Part shown: positions 9,206-50,158 of the stretch, piece after piece
How the letters are laid out: the number at the start of each line of letters is the position of its first letter
Numbering within the stretch: position 1 is the first letter of the stretch
NCBI RefSeq assembly: GCF_003574315.2
Contig: NZ_AP025739.1
Coordinates: 4,774,001-4,838,000, forward strand
Source: Capsulimonas corticalis
GTDB lineage: Bacteria; Armatimonadota; Armatimonadia; Armatimonadales; Capsulimonadaceae
Reading direction: 5' to 3'
Length of the DNA: 64,000 nucleotides
Notes under the pieces: model-generated
Told to the model about the DNA's origin: nothing
Databases searched by the model: none
Seen by the model: the letters and a program-made list of their open reading frames with translations, nothing else
Translations under genes and position numbers: made by a program

Positions 9206-11674
9206 ATGCAACATTTGATCGACAAGAAGACCTTTTCGCCGATTTTGCGCTCGCTCCTCTGGATTCTGCTGATTACCCTCGGTGTCACCATGATGGGATC
9301 GGTCGTTTCGCGCGCCGCCGAGCCGGTCAATCTCGTCATTTGGGGATTGGAGTCCAGCGAGGAGTCGAAGGACCAGGACGCAAAGATCGCCGAGTTCGAG
9401 CGCCGCAATCCGGGCATTAAGGTCTCCGCGCTCTCGATGGGCGCGGGCGCTATGAACCCGCAGAAGCTGATGACGGCGATTGTCGGCGGCGTGCCGCCGG
9501 ACCTCGTTCGCCAGGACCGGTTCACCGTCGGCGACTGGGCCAGTCGCGGCGCCTTCCGCTCCCTGAACGACTTTCTCGCGGAAGACGCGGCCAGCCAAAA
9601 TCCCAAGGCGATCCGGCAGGCGGATTACGTTCCGGCCACCTGGAGCGAAGTGCTTTATCAGGGCAAAACGTACGGTATTCCTCAGGATACGGACGACCGC
9701 GTTCTTTACTATAACAAGACGATGTTCCGCGCGGCGGGCCTCGATCCGGAAAAGCCGCCGCGCACCTGGAGCGAGCTAATCTACGACGCCAAGAAGCTGA
9801 CCAAGCGCAACTCCGTGGGCGGCCTGGAGCAGATTGGACTGATCCCGACCTTCGGCGAAGGATGGCTTTATTTGTGGTCGTGGCAGGCCGGCGGTGAACT
9901 GCTTTCGCCCGATGGCCGCACCTGTACGCTGGCGAACCCCAGCACCGAGTACGCGCTGACGAACATCGTTAGCTGGTGGGATGCGCTGGGCGGAGTCGAC
10001 ACCATCAACGCCTTCTCCGGCTCGTTCCAGGGCCAGGAGCAGGACCCGCTGATGACCGGCAAGCTGGCGATGGAGGTCGGCGGCGACGGCATCATCAACT
10101 CGATCGCGCGCTACCATCCCGAGCTGGACTTCGGCGTCTGCCCCGTTCCCGTGCCCGACGACCGGTTTAACCATGTCGGCAAGTACAAAAACGAGCCGAC
10201 CTATCTGACCTGGTCCGGCGGCGCCGCGTGGGTCATCCCGCAAGGCGCGAAGCATGCCCGGGAAGCATGGCGGTTTATCCAGTGGATGAACTCGGCCGAG
10301 GCGGAGCTGATCGGCAACAAAGCGCAGGCGGCTTATGTCCACGGCAAAGGACGTTTATTTGTCCCGAACCTCACGGCCAACCGAATTGCTACGGCGGCCG
10401 TCTTCGGCGCATACAAGAGTACGCTGCCGCCCAAGTTCTTAATCGCCAAGCAAACCGCGCTGGATCTGCTGCCCTACACCAAGTTCCGGCCGGTGACGTT
10501 TGTCGGCCAGCGCCTCTGGGACGAGCATGTGCGCGCCGTCGATCAATCGATCCGCCACGTGAAATCGCCGCATGACGCCCTTTTGTACGGCCAAAAGCAC
10601 GTCCAGATCGAACTCGATACGGTTTACAACCGGGAATCGCACCCGGTGCTTCCGATGAAGCCGCTCGTGACGGCCATCGTCCTGATCGCAGTGATCGGTT
10701 TCGCCATTCTGGGATTGAAGATCGCGCAGTGGATGCGCTCGCAGCGCCGCGCCACCCGGGCGGAGGCGTGGGCTGGCTTCGGATTTGTGACGCCATGGAT
10801 CATCGGATTTTTGGTGTTCACGCTGGGACCGATCATCGCGTCGCTGATCCTCTCATTCTGTGACTACGACGTCCTGCATCCCGCTCGGTGGGCAGGCGCG
10901 TCCAACTATGTTTCGCTGGCGACGATCGACCGCGCCTTCATCATCAAGAGCATTGGCAACGCCCTGTATTTGGCGCTGTTCGGCATCCCATTAGGAATGT
11001 GTACGAGCCTTGCGATGGCGATGCTGCTCAACACCAAGGTGAAGGGGCTGCAAATTTACCGCACGGCGTTCTACATGCCCAGCATTATCCCCGTTGTTGC
11101 GACGACCGTTCTCTGGGCGTGGATCCTCAATGGCGATCCGAACCGGGGCTTGCTCAACGCCTTCTGGCAGACCTCAATCACTCCCTGGATGCATGTGGCG
11201 CCGCCGGGATGGCTCTCGGTTCCCGCCTGGACCAAGCCCAGCTTGATCCTGATCGGCCTGTGGGGCGCGGGCGGCGGCATGATCCTGTGGCTGGCGGGCC
11301 TCCAGTCGGTGCCGGCGACGCTGTATGAGGCCGCCTCCCTGGACGGCGCCAGCAGCTGGGCGCAGTTCCGCCACATTACCTTGCCGATGCTTTCACCCTA
11401 TATCTTCTTCAACTTGATCATGGGTACGATCGGCGCGCTGCAAACATTCGAGACCGCCTATATTCTCGGCAACACGGGCGGCGGAGGCGGAACAGGCCCG
11501 GACGACAGTCTGCTGGTGCCCGTCGTCTATCTCTTCAACAACGCCTTCCAATACTTCAAGATGGGGTACGCCAGCGCGCTCGCCTGGATCCTGTTCGTCA
11601 TCATTCTGGGACTGACGATGGGGCAGCTGAAGATGGCGCCGCGCTGGGTGCACTACGAGACGGAAGAGAAGTAG
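9206..11674 (+). CDS. Fused sugar-binding protein / ABC transporter permease (MalE-MalF-like)
   Basis: 822 aa. An N-terminal membrane segment or signal (LWILLITLGVTMMG) is followed by a family 1 extracellular solute-binding domain at about 35-450 (VNLVIWGLESSEESKDQDAK..FERRNPGIKV). A membrane helix near 485-508 joins it to a MalF-type permease with several helices. The EAA loop that contacts the ATPase begins at Glu708 (EAASLDGASSWAQFRHITLP). Separate genes normally encode these two parts, so the binding protein here is tethered to the membrane. The second permease follows 36 bp downstream. No ATPase gene is present in the window; a shared MsmK-like ATPase elsewhere would be needed. Confidence 0.9.
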   Translation: MQHLIDKKTFSPILRSLLWILLITLGVTMMGSVVSRAAEPVNLVIWGLESSEESKDQDAKIAEFERRNPGIKVSALSMGAGAMNPQKLMTAIVGGVPPDLVRQDRFTVGDWASRGAFRSLNDFLAEDAASQNPKAIRQADYVPATWSEVLYQGKTYGIPQDTDDRVLYYNKTMFRAAGLDPEKPPRTWSELIYDAKKLTKRNSVGGLEQIGLIPTFGEGWLYLWSWQAGGELLSPDGRTCTLANPSTEYALTNIVSWWDALGGVDTINAFSGSFQGQEQDPLMTGKLAMEVGGDGIINSIARYHPELDFGVCPVPVPDDRFNHVGKYKNEPTYLTWSGGAAWVIPQGAKHAREAWRFIQWMNSAEAELIGNKAQAAYVHGKGRLFVPNLTANRIATAAVFGAYKSTLPPKFLIAKQTALDLLPYTKFRPVTFVGQRLWDEHVRAVDQSIRHVKSPHDALLYGQKHVQIELDTVYNRESHPVLPMKPLVTAIVLIAVIGFAILGLKIAQWMRSQRRATRAEAWAGFGFVTPWIIGFLVFTLGPIIASLILSFCDYDVLHPARWAGASNYVSLATIDRAFIIKSIGNALYLALFGIPLGMCTSLAMAMLLNTKVKGLQIYRTAFYMPSIIPVVATTVLWAWILNGDPNRGLLNAFWQTSITPWMHVAPPGWLSVPAWTKPSLILIGLWGAGGGMILWLAGLQSVPATLYEAASLDGASSWAQFRHITLPMLSPYIFFNLIMGTIGALQTFETAYILGNTGGGGGTGPDDSLLVPVVYLFNNAFQYFKMGYASALAWILFVIILGLTMGQLKMAPRWVHYETEEK

Positions 11675-11710: not shown

Positions 11711-12988
11711 ATGAACCTAATCGTTTGGCTGATTATCGTCGTTGCCGCTTACGCCTCCGTGGGCTTCTGGGTGGCGAACATCATTCGGGCATTCCGGCTG
11801 GGACGAACGCCGCTGGCGGCCACGCTATTGGCGCTGCCGTTGGCGGCGCTCCTCGCAAGCATGTTCCTCACGCCGGCCGTGCGGATCATCGCCTTTGAAG
11901 CGGTGCTGGCGGCGGGAACCGCGGTGCTGGCGAAAGTCTTTGCGCCCGCCGTGGACGTCGTGCCGCAAAAAGAAACGAAGACCTCGGTGCTGCACCTGGT
12001 GCTGATCTCCGGCTCGGCGCTCTTCCTGATCCCGTTCTTCTGGATGTTCATTACCTCGGTCAAGGAAGACAGTCAGATGACTCACTTCCCGCCCGAGTTT
12101 ATTCCCACCCAGCAGGTCAAGATCAAGCTCGACGGTAAGGACGCCGGGCTGGTATGGATGACCAACAACGGCATGCGCGTCAAGGGCGCCGTCACCGAAA
12201 CCTTTCCCGACGGCACCGAGGATGTGCGCGTCTTGAACGGCGGTCAGACGAAGCGGGTGTCCAAAGCGGACGTCACGGAGATCCGCCGCTTCGATCCGGT
12301 CTGGAAGAACTATCCGGATGCGCTCGACTTCCTGCCGGCGGAAAGCCACTATGGCCTGGTCAATCTGCAAAACACGCTGATCATCGCTCTGATGTCGGTG
12401 ATCGGCACCACGCTTTCGTCGAGCCTGGTCGCCTACGGCTTCTCGCGCTTGAAATGGCCCGGCCGGGACTGGCTGTTTGGGATCGTGCTGGCGACGATGA
12501 TGCTTCCGGACGCCGTCACGATGATGCCGCGCTTCCTGATCTTCCGCGACCTGCACTGGATCGACACGCTGTACCCGCTCTGGGTGCCATCGTTCTTCGC
12601 CGGCGCGTTCAATGTCTTCTTGCTGCGCCAGTTCTTCATGGGAATCCCCAAGGAGCTGGAGGACGCGGCGAAGATCGACGGGTGCAGCTACTTCACCACC
12701 TACTGGCGCGTGATGCTGCCGATGGTGAAGCCCGCGCTGGCCGCCGTCTCGATCATGACGTTCATCGGCGCCTGGAAAGACTTTATGGGCCCGCTGATCT
12801 TCATCTCGACGCCGCAGAAGATGCCGCTTTCGTATGTGCTCCAGTTGTTCAACTCATCGCACGGCGGCGAGCCGGGAATGCTGATGGCGGCCACGACGCT
12901 CGTTATGCTGCCGGTCATCGTGCTGTTCTTCTTCACGCAGCGCTACTTCATCGAAGGCGTCTCGCTGACGGGACTTGGCGGCCGATAG
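11711..12988 (+). CDS. Sugar ABC transporter permease (MalG-like) with extracytoplasmic insertion
   Basis: 425 aa, longer than the usual 280 aa MalG-type protein. Three extra hydrophobic segments lie in residues 1-80. After the first core helix (about 95-118), residues about 120-215 form a polar insertion (VKIKLDGKDAGLVWMTNNG...RVSKADVTEIRRF) that is probably outside the cell and close to the fused binding domain of the partner. The EAA loop is at about 314-335 (ELEDAAKIDGCSYFTTYWRV). The last gene of the importer operon. Confidence 0.9.
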   Translation: MNLIVWLIIVVAAYASVGFWVANIIRAFRLGRTPLAATLLALPLAALLASMFLTPAVRIIAFEAVLAAGTAVLAKVFAPAVDVVPQKETKTSVLHLVLISGSALFLIPFFWMFITSVKEDSQMTHFPPEFIPTQQVKIKLDGKDAGLVWMTNNGMRVKGAVTETFPDGTEDVRVLNGGQTKRVSKADVTEIRRFDPVWKNYPDALDFLPAESHYGLVNLQNTLIIALMSVIGTTLSSSLVAYGFSRLKWPGRDWLFGIVLATMMLPDAVTMMPRFLIFRDLHWIDTLYPLWVPSFFAGAFNVFLLRQFFMGIPKELEDAAKIDGCSYFTTYWRVMLPMVKPALAAVSIMTFIGAWKDFMGPLIFISTPQKMPLSYVLQLFNSSHGGEPGMLMAATTLVMLPVIVLFFFTQRYFIEGVSLTGLGGR

Positions 12989-29975: not shown

Positions 29976-31151
29976 ATGAAGAATGACGGCGCCGCCGACT
30001 TCACGAAGCTGCATTCGCCGTTATATCGCGTGATCGAGCAGAACCTGAGGGATCGTATCCAGAGCGGCCACTGGCCTCCCGGAGCGATGCTGCCGAGCCG
30101 CAAGGCGCTCGCCCAGGAGTATGATGTCGATATGCGCACGATCCAGCGCGCCGTCAGCGGCCTGCTCGCCGATGGCGCGCTGAACGCGCATGGCGGACGA
30201 GGGACATTCGTCGCCCAGGCCACGGATGCCGGCGGCGAGAACTCGCCGGGCGCGGGCGTGCAAACCGTGGTGATCGTCGCCGACCCCTCGTTCCATCCCG
30301 GCCCCGGCTGGTTCGCCGTCGTGAACTCCATCCATGAGGGCTTGCGCCGCCAGGATCTCCAATATCGGATCGTCACGATCAATACAGCCGACAAGTCGCC
30401 CGAAAGCGTGATCCGGCATGAGCGGGACGCCTTGAAGATGGCGGCGACGGAGGATGTCGCCGGCGTCATTATGTTTCACGCCGGCGGCGAAGCGACACTG
30501 CCCGATATCCAGCGCGTCCTTTCGGCAAAGATCCCGGTCGTCTTTGTCGACCGCGTTCCCTTCGAGCACGGCTGCGATTTCGTCGGCATCGACAACCGCA
30601 TGGCGGCGCGCGAGGCGGTCGACTATTTGATTTCCATCGGGCATCGGAAGATCGCCTTCGTCGCGCCCGATGAAAACGTCTCGTCCGTCCAGGAGCGCAT
30701 GGAGGGGTACTTCGACGCGCGCATGAGCGCGGGGCTGGTGACCTCGGAAGACCTCGTTTTCCCGCTGTCCCTGGAAAAACTCTTCGCGAACGCCACGGTC
30801 AAATCCGAGGTCGAGCGGGTCATCGACGCGATGATGGCCCTGCCGGAGCCGCCCACGGCGGTTTTCGCCGTCAACGACTTTATTGCCGAATATATACTGA
30901 TCGCGCTGGAGGAAAAGGGGATCGCCGTCCCCGAGACGCTGAGCGTCATCGGGTTCGACGATATCGAACGCTTCGCGCCGCAAAAGCCGAAATTGACGAC
31001 GGTCCGGCAGCCCTTCGAATCGATCGGAGACCGCGCCGCCTCCATGCTGATCTGGCGAATGAACCATCGCGACAATCCCGCCGCGGCTTACCAGCATGTG
31101 CTGCTGCCGACCCGGCTGGTGGCGCGCGGGTCTACGAGGGAGATCGGGTAG
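29976..31151 (+). CDS. GntR/LacI-type (AraR-like) transcriptional regulator
   Basis: 391 aa. Residues about 15-80 are a GntR winged helix (IEQNLRDRIQSGHWPPGAMLPSRKALAQEY, TIQRAVSGLLADGALNAHGGRGTFV). The remainder is a LacI-type sugar-binding sensor (GVIMFHAGGEATLPDIQRV, PVVFVDRVPFEHG, IGHRKIAFVAP, SVIGFDDIERFAP). It is very similar to the protein encoded at 33161, so one arose by duplication. Its gene ends three bases from the convergent GH71/99-like gene. It probably represses nearby enzyme genes in the absence of a sugar. Confidence 0.9.
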   Translation: MKNDGAADFTKLHSPLYRVIEQNLRDRIQSGHWPPGAMLPSRKALAQEYDVDMRTIQRAVSGLLADGALNAHGGRGTFVAQATDAGGENSPGAGVQTVVIVADPSFHPGPGWFAVVNSIHEGLRRQDLQYRIVTINTADKSPESVIRHERDALKMAATEDVAGVIMFHAGGEATLPDIQRVLSAKIPVVFVDRVPFEHGCDFVGIDNRMAAREAVDYLISIGHRKIAFVAPDENVSSVQERMEGYFDARMSAGLVTSEDLVFPLSLEKLFANATVKSEVERVIDAMMALPEPPTAVFAVNDFIAEYILIALEEKGIAVPETLSVIGFDDIERFAPQKPKLTTVRQPFESIGDRAASMLIWRMNHRDNPAAAYQHVLLPTRLVARGSTREIG

Positions 31152-33112: not shown

Positions 33113-33160
33113 AACCGTATTACGAAATCATATCATCGTGTGGGTGTGGAAAGCGACGCA

Positions 33161-34348
33161 ATGAGCAGAATTGGCGACAGGAAACTCCGCGGCGATCGGG
33201 ACCTCTCCATGGCCGTCTACCGGCGTATTGAAGAGGATCTGCGCGGCCGCATTGCCTCCGGCGAGTGGATGGCGGGCGCCATGATTCCCAGCCGCAAGGA
33301 TCTAGCCGCCGAATACGGGGTAGATCTGGGCACCATTCAGCGCGCCGTCGCCGGTTTGCTGTCCGACGGGGCGCTGCGTGCGGACGGCGGACGCGGAACA
33401 TTTGTCGCGATGTCCGCCGGCGCGTCCCGCCTGCCGAGCGTGTCGAAGAGATCCGTCACGCCTAAAATGATCGCGCTGATTTACGATCAGTCTTTCAACC
33501 CGACGGATATCGGGGCGCAGTCGATTCCCCGGTCGATATATCATAAATTCCTGGAGGAAGAAGCGAACTGCCGTCTGCTCATCTTCGATACCCACGGCGA
33601 AACGCCGGAGCGGATCGTGGAGCTGGAAGGGCACGCCTTGGACGCCGTTGAGAGCGAAGGCGTCTCCGGCGTGATCGTCTGGCACAGCGGCGGAGAGAGC
33701 ACCCTGCCACAGATCCGGCGCATCATGGACCGAGGCGTTCCCGTGATCTTCATGGATCGCTACCCGCTCGGTTTCGATTGTGACTTCGTGGGCGTGGACG
33801 ATGAGTTCAGCGGCCAGGAGGCCACGGATTACTTGCTGGGCCTGGGACATCGCCGCATCGCTTTTCTCGCTCCGCTGGAGAATATCACGACGATCGACCA
33901 GCGTCTGGCCGGATACAAGAAAGCCCTCGCGAATGTCGGCATCCTCCCGTCGCCGGAACTCATTTGCCGGCTGCCCTATACGCTCAGCCTGAATATGGTG
34001 ACCCTGAAACAGCAGATGAAGGCGGCGGCGGCCTCGCTCGCGGCCCTGAACGATCCGCCGACCGCCGTGTTCGCGGTCAACGATCTCCTGGCGCATTACT
34101 ATATCTCAGCCATCAAAGAGCTGGGACTATCCGTTCCGGGGGAGATGAGCGTGATCGGCTTTGACGATATGGACCGTTTTGCGCCCGCGCCCCAGTTTTT
34201 GACGACGATGCATCAGCCCTTCGAGACGATGGGCGAGCGCACCGCCGAACTGCTGCTCAAGCGTCTCCAAACGCCGGGGCAGCGCACCTTCCAGCACATT
34301 TTGCTTCCGACCAAGCTCGTTGTCCGCCAGTCCTGTCGTTCTCTCTAG
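33161..34348 (+). CDS. GntR/LacI-type (AraR-like) transcriptional regulator
   Basis: 395 aa from ATG 33161, which has GGAAAG seven bases upstream; a GTG at 33140 is the alternative. GntR winged helix at about 12-80 (IEEDLRGRIASGEWMAGAMIPSRKDLAAEYG), LacI-like sensor thereafter (GVIVWHSGGESTLPQIRRI, PVIFMDRYPLG, LGHRRIAFLAP, SVIGFDDMDRFAP). Divergent from the GH71/99-like gene with overlapping control regions, and 48 bp upstream of a pseudopilin gene, so it likely controls both. Confidence 0.9.
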   Translation: MSRIGDRKLRGDRDLSMAVYRRIEEDLRGRIASGEWMAGAMIPSRKDLAAEYGVDLGTIQRAVAGLLSDGALRADGGRGTFVAMSAGASRLPSVSKRSVTPKMIALIYDQSFNPTDIGAQSIPRSIYHKFLEEEANCRLLIFDTHGETPERIVELEGHALDAVESEGVSGVIVWHSGGESTLPQIRRIMDRGVPVIFMDRYPLGFDCDFVGVDDEFSGQEATDYLLGLGHRRIAFLAPLENITTIDQRLAGYKKALANVGILPSPELICRLPYTLSLNMVTLKQQMKAAAASLAALNDPPTAVFAVNDLLAHYYISAIKELGLSVPGEMSVIGFDDMDRFAPAPQFLTTMHQPFETMGERTAELLLKRLQTPGQRTFQHILLPTKLVVRQSCRSL

Positions 34349-39198: not shown

Positions 39199-42100
39199 AT
39201 GGTTAAGCTTCGTACTCTTCTGGGCGTGCTGTCCCTGCCCATCGCGGCGGCGGGCATTGCTTCGGCGGCGCCGGTTAACTCCTTTGAGCCGGCGACGGGA
39301 ACGATCGTCGACAAACGATGGCAGTCAGGCCTGCCGCTGGGCGGCATCGGCGTCGGCAAAATCGAATTGATGACGGACGGCTCGTTCGGCAACTTCACCA
39401 ATCAGCATAACTGGGACCGGCCGTACGCCTGGGCGAAGGGCGCTTTCGCGGCCATTCGTGTGAAGAGCGCCGGCGGCGAGCCCGTTGCGCGCATGCTGCG
39501 TTTGAAGAGCGACGGCGAGTACGCCGGCGTGGACAATGTCGCGCATACCCGCATGCAGGGCTGGTTCCCGCGCGCCCAAATCGATTACAGCGACGCCGCG
39601 CTGCCGGTCAAGGTGCGCCTCAACGCCTTCTCGCCATTGATTCCGCACAACGCCAAGGATTCGGGGCTGCCGATTGCCTGCCTGGATTATGTCGTCACCA
39701 ACACCTCGGACAAATCGGTGAGCGCGACGGTCGCGCTGGCGTGGCCGAATCTGCTGGGGTGGGGTGGCAAAGGCGGCGTGAGCTGGGACGATCTGACCGG
39801 CAATTCTCAGGCGCCGGCCGCGGTCGGCGCGCTGACGGGACTGCGCTACACGACCACGCAGAAGTATGACGATCAGCATCAGAACGTGCTGGGCGAAGAT
39901 TTCGTGAGCGTGCGCAAGGACGCCGGAGTGGATGTCTCCACCTGCTCGGCCTGGGACGCGGGCGCCGCAACGCCGTCGTTCTGGAGCGACTTCGCGTCGT
40001 CCGGCACGCTGCCCCCGGCCGCGCCCGGCGCGGCGCCGCAGCCGGCGGGCGCGGTGGCGGCGAGCGTGACGCTCGCGCCAGGCGAGACGCGCACGCTGCA
40101 TTACTATGTCGTGTGGGCGATGCCGAACCTGCTGATGGTGAACCCCATCAAGCATTACACCGGAGCGTACGATGAGTCGCCGGCGCGCGTGCCGAGCCTC
40201 ACGGAGCAGAACCCCGAGCGCTGGACCACCAATCGCGGCATGCACACCGGCGACAGCCTGGTGATCGATCTCGGCAAAGTCCTCACGCCGACCGAAATTG
40301 ATCTCAAGAGCGGAGAAGGTGCGTCGCCGAGCGACTATCCGCGCGGCATGAAGGTCGAAGTCTCGACGGATGGATCGGCGTGGACGACCGTCGCCGACAA
40401 GACCAAGGAAGAGATGTTCGAATCGCTCGCCAAGGTGGCGCTGACGCCGACCGCCGGCCGCTATGTGCGCTTGACGAACGAGGGCGACGACGGCCTTTTC
40501 TGGAGCATCTATGGCCTGGGCGTGCGCGTGCAGGAGCAGGACGCTCTGATCGATCCCACGAATGTGACGGCGCGCATGCCGCACGCCGATTTGACCATCG
40601 ATAACGTACAGGCCGGCCACTACTGGCAGAACTATTGGAGCGACGGGCTGAAGATCGCCGATTACGCCGATAAAAACGCGGACCGCCTGCTCAAGGAAAC
40701 GCGCGCCTGGCAGGATCCAGTCTTGAAATCCGACGTTCCCTTCTGGCTGAAGCTCAAGCTGATCAACTGCGCATTCCCGATGTTCTCCAACACCGTTCTG
40801 ACCAAGAACGGCGAGTTCAGCGTTCTGGAAAGCCCCATCGAGATGGGCGGGGCGCTGGGCACGATGGATCAGCGTATGGCGGCGCACGCCTTCCTGACGG
40901 CGTTCTTCCCGGAGCTGGATCGCGCGGAGCTGGAGCAGTACGCGCAGTGCCAGCAGCCCGACGGTCGCATCACGCACTTCGACGGCAACGTCCACGTGGC
41001 GATGGTTAATCCGAATGTCAACTACGGCATCACCGACTGGCCGGACCTCTCCACCTCGTGGATCAGCCAATCCGTCAAGCTGTATCGATGGACGGGCGAC
41101 AAGTCGTTCCTGGACCGCGTGCATCCCCATATCGCGAGCGCCATGGAGTGGCTGCGCAAGGACGGCGCGGATTACGAGTATATTCCCGCCGGCGGCAGCA
41201 CTTACGACTATGAGACCCTGCCGCGCGGGCAGTTCATCTACTCGGCGTCGTGCTATCTGGGCGCGCTGCGCGCCGCGTCGGCCATCTCCGATCCCGCGGA
41301 AGCCGCGAAGTACGACAAGACCTTCGCCAACGTGCAGGCGTCCGTGATGAAGAACCTCTGGACCGGGACGTACTTCCGCAAGTGGAAACAGCCGTCCACG
41401 GGCCGCACCGTCGACGACAGCTTTATCGCGAATCTCGCCGGCGACTGGATGACGCGCATCTCCGGACTGCCGACGACCCTGGACGCAAAGATCGTTCATC
41501 AGAGCGTCGCCCAGACGATGGCGCGGCATCAGAAACCGTTCTTCCCGATGCCGCCGATGCAGGTGACGACCGAAGGCAAGATTACCACGAGCGCCTGTTA
41601 TTCGCTCCAGCACGAGCCCTATCTCGGCTGTGAGGCCATTTACGACAACTACGTGGACGACGGCATGGAGACCATCCGCCGCATGTACTTCTCCATCTGG
41701 GAGGAGAACAACAGCCCGTGGGACGAGTCGCTCTGCTACGACGCCTCCAGCGGCCGCAAGGGCGGATTGCCGACATATATGACGTGTCCAACGAGCTGGT
41801 TCGTTCTGGACGCGCTCGCCGGAACATCCATTGATGTCCCGAATGGCCGACTCTACGTCTCGCCGCGCCTGACATCGGCGCAGACCGAACTGCATATCCC
41901 CGTCTATCTGTCGCGCTTCTGGGGATGGCTAGACTATGTTCCCGCCGCGCATAAACTGACGCTGAAGATCGACAAGGTCTTCGGCCCCAACGCCGAACTC
42001 CAAAAGTCGCTCTACCATTTGGCGAGCGCGAAGACCGACGAAATGCCGGAGACCGTCACGATCCGCTCCGTGGCCGCGAGCGGCGACGCGCAGCCGATCG

Positions 42101-42654
42101 CGCTGGCGACGCCCTTTACGGTCAAGGAAGGCGCCGTGCTGGATCTCTCCTCCCAGATCGACCGGCTCGCGATCCCCAAGCATACCGATGTGGTGAACTT
42201 CGAAGTGCGCGCGAAGATCAATCGCCCGGGACTTCCCGCCGAACGTTGGACGCTGACGGATAACCTGCACGACAACCCGCAGCTGGCGGCGATCATCGGA
42301 CAGGACGCGCTGGACGGCAACCCGGAATCCCGCTGGACAACAGGGCGGGGCCTCCAGGCCGGCGACTCGTTCACGCTGGACATGGGCGCCGCGCAAAAGG
42401 TCGCGAAGATGGTGCTGGACGATTCGAAGTTCCCCGGCGACTATCCCGAGGGTTATCAACTCGAAGGCAGCACGGACGGAAAGGCATGGTCGCAGATTGC
42501 GCAGGCGACGCCGCAGGAAACGGAGGCGGCCGTCCAGAACGGAGTGCTTACTATTAACTTCACACCGACGGAGGCGCGTTATCTTCGCGTGACGAGCACC
42601 GGGGCGCACAGCCTCTGGTGGTCCGTCGCCGAGATCTCCGTCGATGCTCCGTAA
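39199..42654 (+). CDS. Secreted GH116-like glycosidase with two discoidin domains
   Basis: 1151 aa with a signal peptide (LLGVLSLPIAAAGIASA). The N terminus (GLPLGGIGVGKIELMTDGSFGNFTNQHNW) is typical of the GBA2/GH116 beta-glucosidase-like family, and residues about 480-900 form its (alpha/alpha)6 domain (ITDWPDLSTSW, STYDYETLPRGQFIYSASCYLGALRAA). An F5/8C (discoidin) domain at about 335-445 is inserted between the N-terminal beta domain and the barrel, and a second one is at about 1019-1151. The Asp in STYDY may be the acid/base. Likely a cell-surface beta-glucosidase or xylosidase. Confidence 0.82.
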   Translation: MVKLRTLLGVLSLPIAAAGIASAAPVNSFEPATGTIVDKRWQSGLPLGGIGVGKIELMTDGSFGNFTNQHNWDRPYAWAKGAFAAIRVKSAGGEPVARMLRLKSDGEYAGVDNVAHTRMQGWFPRAQIDYSDAALPVKVRLNAFSPLIPHNAKDSGLPIACLDYVVTNTSDKSVSATVALAWPNLLGWGGKGGVSWDDLTGNSQAPAAVGALTGLRYTTTQKYDDQHQNVLGEDFVSVRKDAGVDVSTCSAWDAGAATPSFWSDFASSGTLPPAAPGAAPQPAGAVAASVTLAPGETRTLHYYVVWAMPNLLMVNPIKHYTGAYDESPARVPSLTEQNPERWTTNRGMHTGDSLVIDLGKVLTPTEIDLKSGEGASPSDYPRGMKVEVSTDGSAWTTVADKTKEEMFESLAKVALTPTAGRYVRLTNEGDDGLFWSIYGLGVRVQEQDALIDPTNVTARMPHADLTIDNVQAGHYWQNYWSDGLKIADYADKNADRLLKETRAWQDPVLKSDVPFWLKLKLINCAFPMFSNTVLTKNGEFSVLESPIEMGGALGTMDQRMAAHAFLTAFFPELDRAELEQYAQCQQPDGRITHFDGNVHVAMVNPNVNYGITDWPDLSTSWISQSVKLYRWTGDKSFLDRVHPHIASAMEWLRKDGADYEYIPAGGSTYDYETLPRGQFIYSASCYLGALRAASAISDPAEAAKYDKTFANVQASVMKNLWTGTYFRKWKQPSTGRTVDDSFIANLAGDWMTRISGLPTTLDAKIVHQSVAQTMARHQKPFFPMPPMQVTTEGKITTSACYSLQHEPYLGCEAIYDNYVDDGMETIRRMYFSIWEENNSPWDESLCYDASSGRKGGLPTYMTCPTSWFVLDALAGTSIDVPNGRLYVSPRLTSAQTELHIPVYLSRFWGWLDYVPAAHKLTLKIDKVFGPNAELQKSLYHLASAKTDEMPETVTIRSVAASGDAQPIALATPFTVKEGAVLDLSSQIDRLAIPKHTDVVNFEVRAKINRPGLPAERWTLTDNLHDNPQLAAIIGQDALDGNPESRWTTGRGLQAGDSFTLDMGAAQKVAKMVLDDSKFPGDYPEGYQLEGSTDGKAWSQIAQATPQETEAAVQNGVLTINFTPTEARYLRVTSTGAHSLWWSVAEISVDAP

Positions 42655-42675: not shown

Positions 42676-43503
42676 ATGACATCCTCGCTGGCCGTTCAAA
42701 CGTATACGCTCCGTGACTTCACCAAAAACGCCGAGGGCTTCGCGCGCAGTTTGGAAAAGATCCGGGCAATCGGGTATCCGGCGGTCCAGCTCTCCGCCGT
42801 GGGCGCGATGGCGGGCGAGGCGCCCGAAGTCTCGGCCGCCGAGGCGCGCCGGATGCTGGACGACAACGGCCTGAGATGCATCGCCACCCACCGCGATTGG
42901 ACGCGGCTCACGCAGAACACAGACGAAGAGATCGAATTCCATCAAACGCTGGGATGCGATTACGCGGCGATCGGCGGGCTTCCCGGCAATTACTCGTCAG
43001 ATGGGCCGGCCGGTTTCCTCGCCTTTCTGCGCGACTCCGCCCCGGTCATCCGGCGTCTCAAGGACGCCGGAATACGGTTTGGCTATCACAACCATAGCTG
43101 GGAGTTCGAGCGCGTGAGCGCTCGTCCCGGCGACAAACACACGCTGCTCGATATCTTTCTCGAAGAAGGCGGTCCCGAATTCTTCCTGGAGCTCGATCTC
43201 TACTGGGTCAGCCATGCGGGCGTCAACCCGGAGCGATTTGTCGAGCGCGGTCATGGCCGCCTCCCGGTCATCCATGTCAAAGACAAAGGCGTGATCGGTC
43301 ATGAGACTCTGATGACGCCGGTCGGCGAGGGCAACCTCGACTGGACGCATTTGCTGCCCGCCTGCGCGGCGGCAGGCGTGGAGTGGTATGTCGTCGAGCA
43401 GGACGAATGCCGGCGCGATCCGTTCGACTGCCTTGCCTCCAGCTATCAATTTCTCAAAACATCATTCTCCCACTTACTCTCTCATCGCGAAAAAAAGCCA
43501 TGA
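42676..43503 (+). CDS. Sugar phosphate isomerase/epimerase-like TIM barrel protein
   Basis: 275 aa, cytoplasmic. GGAGAGAAAG gives the ribosome site 22 bp after the GH116 stop. AP endonuclease 2/xylose isomerase-like fold (LAVQTYTLRDF at the start; GYHNHSWEF, FFLELDLYWVSHAG, VIHVKDKG, YVVEQDECRRDP, the usual metal ligands His/Glu/Asp). Its stop overlaps the GH3 start by ATGA, which implies translational coupling. It would isomerise a sugar or keto-sugar released by the enclosing enzymes. Confidence 0.88.
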   Translation: MTSSLAVQTYTLRDFTKNAEGFARSLEKIRAIGYPAVQLSAVGAMAGEAPEVSAAEARRMLDDNGLRCIATHRDWTRLTQNTDEEIEFHQTLGCDYAAIGGLPGNYSSDGPAGFLAFLRDSAPVIRRLKDAGIRFGYHNHSWEFERVSARPGDKHTLLDIFLEEGGPEFFLELDLYWVSHAGVNPERFVERGHGRLPVIHVKDKGVIGHETLMTPVGEGNLDWTHLLPACAAAGVEWYVVEQDECRRDPFDCLASSYQFLKTSFSHLLSHREKKP

Positions 43504-46175
43504 CACTCATCAATACTCCCACCGCCAACGGCGTTCTCGCCGCCGATCTGCTGACCACGCGCTCCGAAACCGCGAAAGCGCCTTATTGGAATCGCGCGCT
43601 GCCGGAATCCGAACGGATCGCCGATCTGCTGGGCCGCATGACCCTGCTGGAGAAGGCGCGCCAGCTCGATCTCTACATGGGCGAGCACTTCGTCGACCGC
43701 ATGCGCAACCATACGATGATGGCGCTCGACGCCCGGTTCGACGAGGCCAGCGCGGAAGCGCTGCTGGGCGACGCGGGCGTCGGCGCCATCCATGACCTCT
43801 ACCCGCCGACTTCGGAAGTCCCGAACGCGGTGCAGGATTGGCTGCGGCGGACATCGCGCCTGGGCATCCCCGCGTTGTTCGCCGAGGAGGCGCTGCATGG
43901 CCTCTGCACGCCCGGCAATACGGCGTTTCCGCAGTCCATCGGGCTGGCGTCCACCTGGAACCCAGCGCTGATCGAGAAGGTGGGAGCGGTAGTGGGAGCG
44001 GAGATGCGCTCTGCGAATATCCACTTCGCCTTCGGACCGGTGTTCGATGTCGCTCGCGATCCGCGCTGGGGCCGGACGGAAGAGACCTATGGCGAGGACG
44101 CGCACCTGGTCGCGCGGATCGGCGTCGCCTTCATCCAGGGGATGCAGGGCGAAACGCTGGCGAGCGATCACACCGCCGCCGCCGAGCCCAAGCACTTCGC
44201 CGGTCACGGCGCTCCGGAAGGGGGGCGCAACACGGCGCCGCTGCACGCCGGGCCGCGCGAGATGGCCGAAACCATGCTGCCGCCGTTCGAAGCGGCGATC
44301 CGCGAGTGCGGCGTCCTGGGAATCATGTGCGCCTACCATGAAATCGACGGCGTTCCGTGCGCGGCGAATGGCGATCTGCTGACGGGGATTTTACGCGACC
44401 AGTGGGGCTTCGAGGGCATGGTGCTGTCGGACCTGGGCGCCATTCGGCTGCTGCTGGAGCGGCATCGCGTCGCCGCGGATCCCGCCGATGCGGTCAGGCA
44501 GGCGCTCACCGCCGGCATGGATATGCAGTATTACGATTTCGATCACAAAGTCTTTGAGGACGCCATTATTGACGGCGTGGAGAGCGGCAAGCTGACCATT
44601 GAAGTCGTGGACCAGGCAGTGTCCCGCGTGCTGCGTCTGAAGTTCCGTCTCGGTCTGTTCGAAAACCCGAAGATCGATACGACGCTCGCCGCGCGCGTCA
44701 AGCTCAGCGCGGAGCACCGGGCGGTCAACTTGCAGGCGGCGCGCGAATCGATCTGTCTGCTCAAAAACGATGGGGCGGCGCTGCCGCTGCGCAAGGACTT
44801 TGCCCGAATCGCCGTGCTGGGACCGAACGCCTCGCAGGCTCGCTCCGGCGACTATTCGAGCAGCGGCGCCGGCGATGCGATCTCTCTGCTGAAGGGCGTT
44901 CAGAGCGCCGTTTCTCCCGCGACGGAGGTTCTCTTCGCCGATGGCACTGGCGCGTCCGTCAGCGCCTCGGCCCTGCCCGAACATTGGCTGAGCCATGAGG
45001 GCGGAGCGGGCCTGCGCGCCGAGCTCTTTGCGAGCGTGGATATGGAGGCCGACCCCCTGGTCCGGCGCGTCGATTCCACGATCGACTTCAACTGGGTCGC
45101 CGCATTGCCGGCGGCGGGCATGCCGGTCGACGGGTTTTCCGTCCGCTGGAGCGGGACTCTGGCGCCGGATATCACAGCCGACGGCTTCCTGAGCATTCCC
45201 CCGCAGGATATCATGCATGTCTGGCTGGACGGCGATCTGGTATTGAGCAGCTGGGAGCCGGGCGCGCCGCTCCAAAAGCCCATCTCATTGGTGGCGGGGC
45301 GTTCCTATGCGCTCACCGTCGAGTATCGAAAGATGAGCGGCGGCGCCAGCGTGCGTGTCGGCTGGGCGGCGAAGTCGGGCGATCTGGAGGCGGCGGTCGC
45401 GCTTGCCCGGAGCGCCGATGTCGCCATCATCGCCCTCGGCGAGCCTCCCGGCATCTCGGGAGAAGGGATGGACCGTTCGAATATCGATCTTCCCAAAGAC
45501 CAGATGCAGTTGCTGAAAGCCGTCCACGCGACCGGAACCCCGGTCGTCGTCGTGCTCATGAACGGACGGCCGCTCACGATCAACTGGGCGGCGGAGCACA
45601 TCCCCGCGATTGTCGAAGCCTGGTACCCGGCGGAAGTCGGCGGCGAAGCCCTCGCCGAAGTCTTGTTCGGCGATTACAACCCCGCCGGCCGTCTCCCGGT
45701 CACGTTCCCCAAATCCATCGGCCAGCTCCCGCTAACCTACGATCACAAGCACAGCACTGAAGCGCGCTATGTCGATCTCGACTGGCGCCCCTTGTTCCCA
45801 TTCGGCCATGGCCTGAGCTACACGCAGTTCGAATACTCGAACCTCGAAGTCCAGCCCGTCGAAAGCGTCGCCACAAAGTTCACGGTCTCGGTGACCGTGA
45901 CGAACACCGGGGAGCGCGACGGCGACGAAGTCGTCCAGCTCTACCTGCGCGATGTCGTCGCCAGCGTCACCACCCCCGTCCGCCTGCTCAAAGCCTTCGA
46001 GCGCATCCATCTGAAAGCCGGCGAACAGATGCGTCTGTCCTTCAGCCTGGGCCACCGTGAGCTGTCCCTGATCGACCGAAACCTCAATCGGGTGGTGGAG
46101 CCCGGCGCGTTTGAAGTCTACGTCGGCGGCAGCTCCGACGCCACGCTGACGGCTGAGTTTCGGATTGTGGAGTAG
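43500..46175 (+). CDS. GH3 beta-glycosidase with inserted PA14 domain
   Basis: 891 aa from ATG 43500 (overlapping the isomerase stop); the frame is open upstream. Standard GH3 order: TIM barrel at about 20-350 with RDPRWGRTEETYGEDAHLV, and nucleophile Asp311 in VLSDLGAI; then the alpha/beta domain, interrupted by a PA14 domain at about 505-640 (LRAELFASVDM...), as in beta-glucosidases such as KmBglI; and a C-terminal Fn3-like domain (VVQLYLRDVVASVTTPVRLLKAF). It lacks a signal peptide. Likely cleaves short beta-gluco- or xylo-oligosaccharides in the cytoplasm. Confidence 0.93.
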   Translation: MTLINTPTANGVLAADLLTTRSETAKAPYWNRALPESERIADLLGRMTLLEKARQLDLYMGEHFVDRMRNHTMMALDARFDEASAEALLGDAGVGAIHDLYPPTSEVPNAVQDWLRRTSRLGIPALFAEEALHGLCTPGNTAFPQSIGLASTWNPALIEKVGAVVGAEMRSANIHFAFGPVFDVARDPRWGRTEETYGEDAHLVARIGVAFIQGMQGETLASDHTAAAEPKHFAGHGAPEGGRNTAPLHAGPREMAETMLPPFEAAIRECGVLGIMCAYHEIDGVPCAANGDLLTGILRDQWGFEGMVLSDLGAIRLLLERHRVAADPADAVRQALTAGMDMQYYDFDHKVFEDAIIDGVESGKLTIEVVDQAVSRVLRLKFRLGLFENPKIDTTLAARVKLSAEHRAVNLQAARESICLLKNDGAALPLRKDFARIAVLGPNASQARSGDYSSSGAGDAISLLKGVQSAVSPATEVLFADGTGASVSASALPEHWLSHEGGAGLRAELFASVDMEADPLVRRVDSTIDFNWVAALPAAGMPVDGFSVRWSGTLAPDITADGFLSIPPQDIMHVWLDGDLVLSSWEPGAPLQKPISLVAGRSYALTVEYRKMSGGASVRVGWAAKSGDLEAAVALARSADVAIIALGEPPGISGEGMDRSNIDLPKDQMQLLKAVHATGTPVVVVLMNGRPLTINWAAEHIPAIVEAWYPAEVGGEALAEVLFGDYNPAGRLPVTFPKSIGQLPLTYDHKHSTEARYVDLDWRPLFPFGHGLSYTQFEYSNLEVQPVESVATKFTVSVTVTNTGERDGDEVVQLYLRDVVASVTTPVRLLKAFERIHLKAGEQMRLSFSLGHRELSLIDRNLNRVVEPGAFEVYVGGSSDATLTAEFRIVE

Positions 46176-46232: not shown

Positions 46233-46416
46233 TTAAGGTTTGGATCAAAGGTCCAAATAATTTCAAACTCTGCCCCGGGCGCCATGCCTGCGCAAAGCCG
46301 CCGGCATATTCTGTGGTTGAGAGAAAACGCCGCGTTCCGCTTCGTGCGTAATCCATGTCATTTCCGTTTGTCAGCCTCTCCATCCCTTCCATTTTTTGAT
46401 GTATTCTCTTCCCTGT

Positions 46417-46467: not shown

Positions 46468-48012
46468 ATGAATGCAAAGCCTTATCCACAGCCGATCTCT
46501 TTATCCCTGGTCGGTATCGACGCCGTCCATGATACGGGGTATACGGTCGACCGCCGCACGGGAAGCGATGAGTATCTGTTCGAATTTTTCGACAGCCCCA
46601 TCACGCTTCAGGACGGCCGGGAGCGCCGTCAATATACCGGAGGAGTCTTTATCCTCTACGCGCCCGGGCAGCGACAGTACTTCCGCGCGGATGGACCGTT
46701 GACCCATACCTGGTTCCAGCTTTCCGGCGCCGGGGTTGCGGATTGCGTCGAGCGATATCAAATCCCCGTGAATTGCGCGACGGAGACTCGGCATCCGGAT
46801 TTCCTGGCGCCGATGCTTCGCGAGGCGCTCCAGCACCAGGCCCGCAAGCACCGGAACTGGGAGGACTCCGTCACGGAAGTCTGCCGCAACGTCTTCCGGC
46901 GCCTGTCGCGGGCGCTGTTCCAGACCGGGCCGGTCGAGCTGTCGCCCTACCAGAAGCAGGCGCTGGCGACGCTGCGCGGGGTGCGCGCTCAGGTCTATAA
47001 AGACTTGCAGCGGCGCTGGACAGTGGAAGACATGGCGGCGCTTGCGAATATGAGCGCGCAGCGCTTCGCCGTGGCGTACCGATCGTGCTTTGGAACCGGG
47101 CCGATCGACGACCTGATCGATGTTCGGCTTCGGCACACGGAGATGCTGCTCCGTCATCTGCCGATCACCGTTGTCGAAGCCGCGCAGCACTTTGGGTTCA
47201 ACACGGGCTCGAATTTTCACGTGCTGTTTCGCGAGCGGATGGGGCGTTCGCCGCGTAAATCGGCCAAGGCGCGCGCGCTGCCGGCGATCTCCAGCGTGAC
47301 CGAGGATCAATGGGAGAGCTCGAAGGCGGCGAAAAAGGTCGATCTTCTTTATCTGGAGCCCGCGGCGCACTGGAGCTTCAATCAACTGGGCGCGGAGATC
47401 GTGGATGAATTGGGCAAGCACTCCCCGGCGGTGCTGTCGAGCGGCGTCACCAAGATCAAGGGGCGGAATGGCAACGCCCTGCACTTTGATGGGACGGGGC
47501 ACGCCGTCATTTCCGAGACAGTCATCGATACATCGCGCAGCTACACGGTATCCGCCTGGCTGCGACACGACCGCCCGGGCCGTATGACGGCGGTCAGCAT
47601 CGGCAATCTGCACCATGGGGCGTTTTACCTTCAGTACATTACGCTGGAGGGCGGCTTCAAGTTCGCGGTCACGGTGTCCGAGCGCGACCCGCTGGCGATC
47701 TTTGTCACCAGCTCTCAGCCCAGCGTCGACGGCGAATGGCGGCATGTGATCGGCGTGCACGACGCGGAGCAGCAGGAGATCCGTCTCTATATCGACGGCG
47801 CGCTGGAAGGTCGGACTGCCTACGCCACTCCCTGGAGCGCCGACTGCGCGACCTATCTGGGCGGGTGCGAAGTGATGGACACGATCCAGGATCGCTGGTT
47901 TGGCTCGATGGACGATGTGCGAATCTACGACCGGGCGCTTTCGGATGCGGAGATCGTCATGCTGTACCAGGGCGATGAGGAAAACCTTGCGATGGATCGT
48001 CAGGAGCAATAA
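46468..48012 (+). CDS. AraC-family regulator fused to a LamG/concanavalin A-like domain
   Basis: 514 aa from ATG 46468. Residues 1-130 form a cupin-like domain (EYLFEFFDSPITLQDG, GGVFILYAPGQRQYF). Residues about 181-262 contain the AraC helix-turn-helix pair (WTVEDMAALANMSAQRFAVAYRS and VVEAAQHFGFNTGSNFHVLF). Residues about 302-503 are a LamG/ConA-like beta-sandwich (HWSFNQLG, NGNALHFDGTGHAVIS, SYTVSAWLRHD, GEWRHVIGVHD, IRLYIDGALEG, MDDVRIYDRALSDAEIVMLYQ), a fold otherwise found almost always in secreted proteins. There is no signal or membrane helix. The next gene, four bases away, encodes a similar regulator without the LamG part. Confidence 0.88.
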   Translation: MNAKPYPQPISLSLVGIDAVHDTGYTVDRRTGSDEYLFEFFDSPITLQDGRERRQYTGGVFILYAPGQRQYFRADGPLTHTWFQLSGAGVADCVERYQIPVNCATETRHPDFLAPMLREALQHQARKHRNWEDSVTEVCRNVFRRLSRALFQTGPVELSPYQKQALATLRGVRAQVYKDLQRRWTVEDMAALANMSAQRFAVAYRSCFGTGPIDDLIDVRLRHTEMLLRHLPITVVEAAQHFGFNTGSNFHVLFRERMGRSPRKSAKARALPAISSVTEDQWESSKAAKKVDLLYLEPAAHWSFNQLGAEIVDELGKHSPAVLSSGVTKIKGRNGNALHFDGTGHAVISETVIDTSRSYTVSAWLRHDRPGRMTAVSIGNLHHGAFYLQYITLEGGFKFAVTVSERDPLAIFVTSSQPSVDGEWRHVIGVHDAEQQEIRLYIDGALEGRTAYATPWSADCATYLGGCEVMDTIQDRWFGSMDDVRIYDRALSDAEIVMLYQGDEENLAMDRQEQ

Positions 48013-48015
48013 TCG

Positions 48016-48831
48016 ATGCGCGCTAATCCCAGGGCTGAAAAGATCGAAGTGCTGGAGATCGCCATCGATGCGATCCACGGTCGGGGTTTTGAAATGAACG
48101 CGCCCACGGATACGCCGTACTATACGTTTTCCTATTACAACTGCCCGATCGTCGTGCTGGATTCCAGCGGATGCCGCGAATGGCCGGCGGGCGTCAGTCT
48201 GCTGCACGCGCCGAATGACCCGCGCTATCTTCGCGCGGAGAGCGCCGATCTTCTCAATACCTGGTTTCACTTCGCCGGCCCCGGCGTGCCGGCGTGCCTG
48301 GCGGAGTACGAGATCCCGATCAACACGGTGGTGGATCTGGGGGAGCTGCCGTTTCTGCGGCCGATCCTGGAGGAGGTGCGTCAGGAACGGATCCAGCAGC
48401 CGCTGCACTGGGAAGACGCCGTTTCCGATCTTATCCGCCGATTGTTTCGGGAGTTCGGAGCGCTGAAATCCGATCTGGACAACTCGCTGACGCCCGCGCA
48501 GCGCACCCAGGAGCGCACGCTGCGCGATATCCGCATGCAGGTTCACGCCGATATGGCGCATGAATGGACCGTTCCGGAGATGGCGGCGCTGGGGAACTGG
48601 CACCCAACCTGGTTCGCGACGGTTTACACCCGGCAGTTCGGCGTCAGCCCCATGAACGACCTGCTGAACGTGCGCCTCGCGCATGCGGAGGCGCTGCTGG
48701 TCCATCTCCCGATGACTGTCTCCCACATCGCCGCCAGCTGCGGTTTCGCCAATGTGGAGCACTTCAACCGCCTGTTTCGCAAGCGCAAAGGGTGTACGCC
48801 CAGCCAGATTCGCAAGCAGGGCAAGCGCTGA
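48016..48831 (+). CDS. AraC-family transcriptional regulator
   Basis: 271 aa; starts three bases after the preceding stop, so it is co-transcribed. Its cupin-like N terminus (YYTFSYYNCPIVVLDSSG, GVSLLHAPNDPRYL, TWFHFAGPGVPACLAEYEIPIN) and helix-turn-helix pair (EWTVPEMAALGNWHPTWFATVYTR; TVSHIAASCGFANVEHFNRLF) parallel the AraC part of the gene before it. The pair therefore came from a tandem duplication in which only one copy has a LamG tail. The two could form a heterodimer; this is inference. Confidence 0.9.
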   Translation: MRANPRAEKIEVLEIAIDAIHGRGFEMNAPTDTPYYTFSYYNCPIVVLDSSGCREWPAGVSLLHAPNDPRYLRAESADLLNTWFHFAGPGVPACLAEYEIPINTVVDLGELPFLRPILEEVRQERIQQPLHWEDAVSDLIRRLFREFGALKSDLDNSLTPAQRTQERTLRDIRMQVHADMAHEWTVPEMAALGNWHPTWFATVYTRQFGVSPMNDLLNVRLAHAEALLVHLPMTVSHIAASCGFANVEHFNRLFRKRKGCTPSQIRKQGKR

Positions 48832-49018: not shown

Positions 49019-50158
49019 TTGCAGGAAAAAAGGTGGGTATCGATCGCGTCGTCGATCAAAGGCGCCATTCGGCGCGGGGAGCTGTACGCCGGCGCGCGCA
49101 TCGCGTCGGAGACGGAGATGGCGGCGCAGTGGAACGTCAGCCCCATGACCGTCCACCGCGCGCTGACGGAGCTTCAGCGCGAAGGGTGGGTGGTGCGCCG
49201 CCGCAAGATCGGCACGGTCGTCGCCGACCGCGCCGCGCTGCCGGTAACCAAAGTCGCGCTGATCTTCTCCAGCCACGCGCATCTGCCGGGCGCCGCCTAC
49301 GCCGCCGGTATCGAGGAAAGCCTGGGCGAAGGGCTTCAGCTTCTGCCGCTCAGCACCAGTAATTTAGCCTCCGAAGAGGCGAAGTGCCTGGAGCGGGCCG
49401 CCGCCGAGTGCAGCGCCATCATCTGCTATCCCACGGGAGCGCCCGAAAATACGCCGCTGCTGCGGCGCATCGCCGCCGAAAAGCCGCTGATCTTCGTCGA
49501 CTGTATGCCGGATGGGATCGAAGCCGATGTCGTGATGACGGACAATACCGGCTCGATGCTGATGGGGATGCAGCACCTGCGCAGCCTGGGGCATACCCGG
49601 ATTGCATACTTCATGGAGTACCCGCACATGGTTTCGTCGGAGCGAGAACGCTACGACGGCTACCGGCAGTTCATGAAGCAGGATATCGGCGTCGCGGACC
49701 CGGAGCGCTGGGTGCGGCGAATCTCCAAGGCGATGTCCTGGAAACAGTACTATGACCGTGTGGAATCGATGATGGCGGAGCTGCTGAGCGAGGACGATCC
49801 CATCACGGCGATCGCGTGCCAGCAGGACGCAACCATGTCCGCCGTTCTGGAGGCGTGCGTCCACCTGGGCGTTTCGCTTCCCGACGAGCTGGCCGTCCTG
49901 AGCTTCAACGACATGCAGGCCAAGCTTCAGCCGCTGGCGCACAGCGTGCATCGCCTTGTCCAGCGCCCGGTCGAGATGGGCAACATGGTCTCCAAACGGA
50001 TCCAGCTCCGTCTGAACTCCGCCGGCGTCGCGCCTCAGCAGATGCGGCTGATGACGGACCTTTATCCCGCGCTGCCCTATACCCCGACGGACGCGGCGAA
50101 GCAGTTTGCCGACGCGCGCGAAGCCCGGCGAAACGGCGTCCCCGCACGCGCCGAATAG
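49019..50158 (+). CDS. GntR/LacI-type (AraR-like) transcriptional regulator
   Basis: 379 aa from a TTG start; no in-frame ATG precedes the DNA-binding domain, and the ribosome site is weak. Winged helix at about 8-68 (IASSIKGAIRRGELYAGARIASETEMAAQWNVSPMTVHRALTEL... in short segments), then a LacI-like sensor (KVALIFSSHA, LIFVDCMPDGIEA, LGHTRIAYFMEYP, ELAVLSFNDM). The operator-like motif ATGCCATAGAGT upstream of it and in front of the following operon suggests this protein as the binder. Confidence 0.85.
   Translation: MQEKRWVSIASSIKGAIRRGELYAGARIASETEMAAQWNVSPMTVHRALTELQREGWVVRRRKIGTVVADRAALPVTKVALIFSSHAHLPGAAYAAGIEESLGEGLQLLPLSTSNLASEEAKCLERAAAECSAIICYPTGAPENTPLLRRIAAEKPLIFVDCMPDGIEADVVMTDNTGSMLMGMQHLRSLGHTRIAYFMEYPHMVSSERERYDGYRQFMKQDIGVADPERWVRRISKAMSWKQYYDRVESMMAELLSEDDPITAIACQQDATMSAVLEACVHLGVSLPDELAVLSFNDMQAKLQPLAHSVHRLVQRPVEMGNMVSKRIQLRLNSAGVAPQQMRLMTDLYPALPYTPTDAAKQFADAREARRNGVPARAE

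Follow-up and report, generated by a model that had tools for sequence, protein, structure and literature searches.

In the AraC/XylS family of transcriptional regulators, E. coli AraC carries a sensor-type N-terminal domain, a linker and a double helix-turn-helix (HTH). The AraC-LamG regulator of Capsulimonas corticalis described here has the double HTH, a linker and a putative N-terminal domain of the same type, and differs from AraC by about 215 additional residues predicted to form a C-terminal LamG sandwich. In Rob, another member of the AraC family, an additional domain likewise sits C-terminal to the HTH as LamG does in AraC-LamG; however, the Rob domain is GyrI-like (effector) and not LamG, and Rob is without an N-terminal cupin-like domain. 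The profile of the AraC-LamG subfamily also picks up the DNA-binding part of Rob. A survey of AraC/XylS proteins recorded 106 different companion domains (PMC5882156), and an odd partner domain is thus not rare per se. On the LamG side, the fused domain matches exported bacterial Laminin_G_3 (PF13385) domains in sequence family and fold but differs from them in being joined to a DNA-binding regulator that has no export signal. Among solved structures, its predicted sandwich is closest in fold to domain 4 of AbnA, a GH43 arabinanase; this domain binds arabinan (Kd about 8-11 uM; PMC9110388) but is a module of an extracellular enzyme, and the likeness is one of fold. No description of AraC-LamG regulators was found in the papers searched, and we read the protein as a new domain architecture within a known family.

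The window, i.e., the whole stretch of 64,000 nucleotides that was analysed, corresponds to positions 4774001-4838000 of the chromosome and harbors the first of two AraC-LamG genes (copy 1). The gene and the parts of its product are as follows (positions are those of the window).

46468..48012, + strand: AraC-LamG regulator gene, copy 1, 514 aa, a single open reading frame with an 81% identical orthologue.
46468..46959, + strand: N-terminal AraC-type sensor/dimerisation region, residues 1-164, predicted as a cupin-like beta barrel plus helices.
47032..47259, + strand: AraC double HTH, residues 189-264, PF12833 over the cut-off.
47260..47352, + strand: variable linker, predicted helix, residues 265-295, with low pLDDT and higher dN/dS.
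47353..47979, + strand: LamG/ConA-like sandwich, residues 296-504 (Pfam core 341-496), from PF13385 and the AlphaFold model.

The frame runs from the ATG at 46468 to the TAA at 48010-48012 with zero internal stops. Strong similarity to the orthologue starts at this ATG and is mostly gone upstream of it, which supports ATG 46468 as the start; on the same ground, the upstream TTG at 46396 was rejected. The sequence-only reading had described a cupin plus AraC protein continuing in frame into a LamG domain, and the fusion is genuine, with one intact frame, both Pfam domains over their cut-offs and all of the reported LamG motifs present (FNQLG, SYTVSAWLRHD, WRHVIGVHD, DDVRIYDRALSDAEI). The domain-database search that it had proposed, run here with Pfam, returned HTH_18 at residues 189-264 (39.5 bits vs. 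a cut-off of 33.6), HTH_AraC (36.7 vs. 26.6 bits) and Laminin_G_3 (PF13385) at residues 341-496 (E 1.7e-25, 90.3 bits vs. 27.6). The cupin assignment held in part. AlphaFold predicted a beta-rich N-terminal region followed by helices, with strands at residues 11-86 at pLDDT of about 91-97, and hhalign matched the subfamily profile to E. coli AraC at 99.1% across residues 17-270, the score coming largely from the HTH part; Pfam gave no match to the N-terminal 171 residues, even at E 1.

Structural modeling of the LamG part alone gave a confident jelly-roll (pLDDT 90.8, pTM 0.90), and the sequence-only reading, which had named failure to obtain a LamG sandwich as a ground for refutation, was thereby supported. 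The nearest solved structure, AbnA domain 4 (PDB 5hon, 5ho2), was matched at a Z of about 24, with an rmsd of about 2.1 A over 195 residues at 18-20% identity. The top PDB match by single-sequence search was 4qvs (E 1e-12), a LamG domain from an S-layer domain-containing protein, as against the regulator-fused domain here. Fold matches to the binding domain of clostridial neurotoxins were also obtained; they reflect only the common jelly-roll, and no toxin function was inferred from them. The linker was modelled at pLDDT 48-68 across much of its length, and the full-length model had a pTM of 0.56, at which the relative placement of the domains is uncertain.

Comparison of the copy 1 orthologues by NG86 gave dN/dS values, to be taken as rough owing to the high dS of LamG, of 0.092 for the N-terminal part, 0.054 for the HTH region (residues 165-268), 0.21 for the linker (residues 269-299) and 0.092 for the LamG part. 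Purifying selection acts on the LamG part. Seven of its residues (M373, N380, H383, Y387, Y390, H431 and W477), several of them aromatic or histidine, are identical in both divergent fused copies and uncommon in the ten exported-type LamG domains compared, which suggests a retained, specialised surface that may serve as a binding site or as an interface.

The second AraC-LamG gene (copy 2) is located on the same 7.65-Mb chromosome at 4923521-4925050, 103 kb from copy 1, and its product shares 36-38% identity with that of copy 1 over nearly the full length. A second Capsulimonas species contains a full-length orthologue of copy 1 with 81% identity; its copy 2 is in two halves because of a contig break, the AraC part ending contig C390 and the LamG part ending contig C607. 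Among 291 Armatimonadota genomes, the AraC-LamG order, whose distribution the sequence-only reading had proposed to check, was found only in the two Capsulimonas genomes and in none of the other 289, nor was it found in about 470 genomes outside the phylum, a limited sample in which two phyla were represented by only 1-2 genomes. A contig search with patterns of the N-terminal domain, which reach close kin only, matched a Capsulimonas MAG alone. In the plasmid search, zero records covered 80% of the protein, and the matches listed were LamG-only in extent. The second copy, the two-regulator cassette, GH116 and the restriction to one genus among the genomes searched had gone unreported in the sequence-only reading.

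Phylogenetic analysis placed the four fused AraC parts in one clade (99/95) and their tail-less AraC partners in another (99/95), each dividing into copy 1 and copy 2, with a solo tail-less AraC outside both. The four fused LamG domains also formed one clade (100/99), nested in an Armatimonadota LamG group (98/99) in which several relatives come from exported-type proteins. That the fused and partner clades divide alike fits a single fusion followed by duplication of the pair. The simplest account from these trees would be a tandem duplication of the AraC gene, one gain of LamG and then duplication of the two-gene unit; the fused copies lie on long branches, and this history has good support without being certain. 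Directly upstream of copy 2 lies a gene for a GH116 protein that is 62.6% identical to the GH116 enzyme upstream of copy 1 and, owing to this identity, was probably part of the duplicated block. Elsewhere in the same genome, C1:442642-447331 (L007, L008, L010) encodes a tandem array of four similar proteins of exported type, each about 400 aa long and with LamG at the C-terminus; two of the four rank with the closest LamG relatives of the fused domain.

The genes surrounding copy 1 are organized as follows.

39199..42654, + strand: GH116 enzyme with F5/8 type C domains, paralogue of the GH116 upstream of copy 2.
42676..43503, + strand: xylose-isomerase-like TIM barrel protein (PF01261).
43500..46175, + strand: GH3 enzyme with a PA14 insert, beta-xylosidase/alpha-arabinosidase/beta-glucosidase-like, likely start ATG 43500.
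48016..48831, + strand: tail-less AraC paralogue (partner), starting 3 bases past the AraC-LamG stop and belonging to the partner clade.
49019..50158, + strand: regulator with a GntR-type HTH and a LacI-type sugar sensor, the third regulator, which adjoins the pair in the other species too.

The neighbouring AraC paralogue was confirmed by Pfam to be without the LamG tail, and the same stop-N3-ATG spacing between AraC-LamG and partner was observed at all four junctions seen. The set of GH116, AraC-LamG and AraC occurs twice in the genome. The window also contains the glycosidases GH2 (two), GH3, GH35, GH95, GH116 and GH127, sugar-type ABC transporter genes and three GntR/LacI-type regulators, and is a large polysaccharide-use region. 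The three regulators, each with a GntR HTH and a LacI-type periplasmic-binding sensor, are located at 29976-31151, 33140-34348 and 49019-50158. For the GH3 gene, ATG 43500 is the most likely start and gives a 4-base overlap with the TIM-barrel gene at its stop; the GTG listed at 43383 probably lies too far upstream. A frame of 822 aa at 9206-11674 (+) with SBP_bac_1 and BPD_transp_1 is an apparent fusion of an extracellular substrate-binding protein with an ABC permease, and a second permease gene comes after it, at 11711-12988. In the other species, copy 1 adjoins a GH95-like enzyme instead of GH3, which indicates that the target enzyme is not fixed. A simple comparison of the regions upstream of AraC-LamG, GH116, the GntR-type gene and GH2 revealed no shared operator, only blocks common to orthologues and short matches. 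A 27-base match upstream of the AraC-LamG loci (46331-46357, CGCGTTCCGCTTCGTGCGTAATCCATG) was rejected as an operator, as it is a dispersed repeat that occurs twice in this genome and six times in that of the second Capsulimonas. Scanning the window for Rfam families and tRNAs gave no matches.

Taken as a mechanism, these features could be explained if a cytoplasmic one-component regulator of the AraC/XylS family gained a C-terminal LamG domain before the gene duplication, the probable donor being an exported LamG protein from the same lineage. AraC-LamG and its tail-less partner would be made from a tightly coupled two-gene unit and would probably cooperate, either as a heteromer or at adjacent sites, with the nearby glycosidase genes (GH116, GH3) as presumed targets. 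The most likely ligand of LamG would be an oligosaccharide or glycoside that these glycosidases release and the cell imports; its binding would change how the AraC part binds DNA or activates transcription, so that LamG would add a second ligand input to that of the N-terminal domain. Sensing of an oligosaccharide by the LamG part is the leading hypothesis and a plausible one, though put forward tentatively; it is favoured because of the sugar-enzyme neighbourhood and because the nearest fold is the arabinan-binding AbnA domain 4. Against the mechanism as a whole stand the failure to find an operator common to the candidate target genes, the uncertain placement of the domains in the full-length model and the different enzyme next to copy 1 in the other species. 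A stronger form, in which the protein would represent a new class of one-component regulator combining cupin-like and intracellular lectin inputs, reading oligosaccharide length or type and acting as an obligate heteromer with the tail-less AraC, appears improbable.

The main rival is that LamG serves as a protein-interaction module for the tail-less partner or another cytoplasmic protein and binds no sugar. LamG/ConA sandwiches are common protein-binding folds and bind proteins as well as sugars. The fixed, close pairing with the tail-less paralogue, retained at all four junctions, together with the parallel divergence of the pair members in two clades, also fits a heteromer-forming role, and the fusion-specific residues could form an interface instead of a binding site. 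On the other hand, the partner has the architecture of an ordinary AraC protein, ordinary AraC proteins mostly dimerise via the N-terminal domain, and the solved structure closest in fold is a domain that binds glycan; an interaction module is possible, if rather unlikely. A decidedly improbable reading is that LamG is an inherited spacer or stabilising tail without a ligand, attached to an otherwise ordinary AraC regulator. The variable linker and extreme C-terminus would suit such a tail, as would the faster change of LamG relative to the HTH (dN 0.15 vs. 0.05 between the copy 1 orthologues), but LamG and the sensor part have the same dN/dS, and LamG has been retained, with its specific residues, in both copies despite their divergence.

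LamG domains are usually extracytoplasmic, although this location does not define the family, and among the 17 other LamG proteins of this genome inspection revealed an N-terminal secretion or Tat-type signal in 13 and none in three, the remaining one not being covered at its start. The two AraC fusions are hence unusual in location. Export or membrane association of AraC-LamG or its LamG part, as a one-piece surface sensor, would agree with these 13 relatives, but is very improbable: the HTH sits between the N-terminus and LamG, and hydropathy analysis of the copy 1 protein, in which the Kyte-Doolittle mean over 19 residues never rose above 0.88, detected no hydrophobic segment, in agreement with the earlier claim that it lacks a signal peptide or membrane helix. 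We infer that the protein is cytoplasmic. The chance that a sequencing or assembly error joined an AraC gene to an exported LamG gene, the ground for refutation that the earlier reading had itself named, is negligible, as nothing was found in its favour and it is ruled out by the presence of another copy on the chromosome, the full-length 81% orthologue in another species, the intact frame, the matching trees and the dN/dS of about 0.09 over the LamG part.

The AraC-LamG fusion is old, duplicated and maintained by selection amid plant-sugar enzymes. A bacterial transcription factor in a little-studied phylum has recruited a LamG/ConA-like domain of the kind typically seen in exported proteins that handle glycans, and has kept it through duplication; the resulting protein probably represents a sugar-responsive switch of a new form. 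Were LamG to sense oligosaccharides, it would provide a route for reading polysaccharide breakdown products inside the bacterial cell, as well as a ready-made sensor part for synthetic biology.
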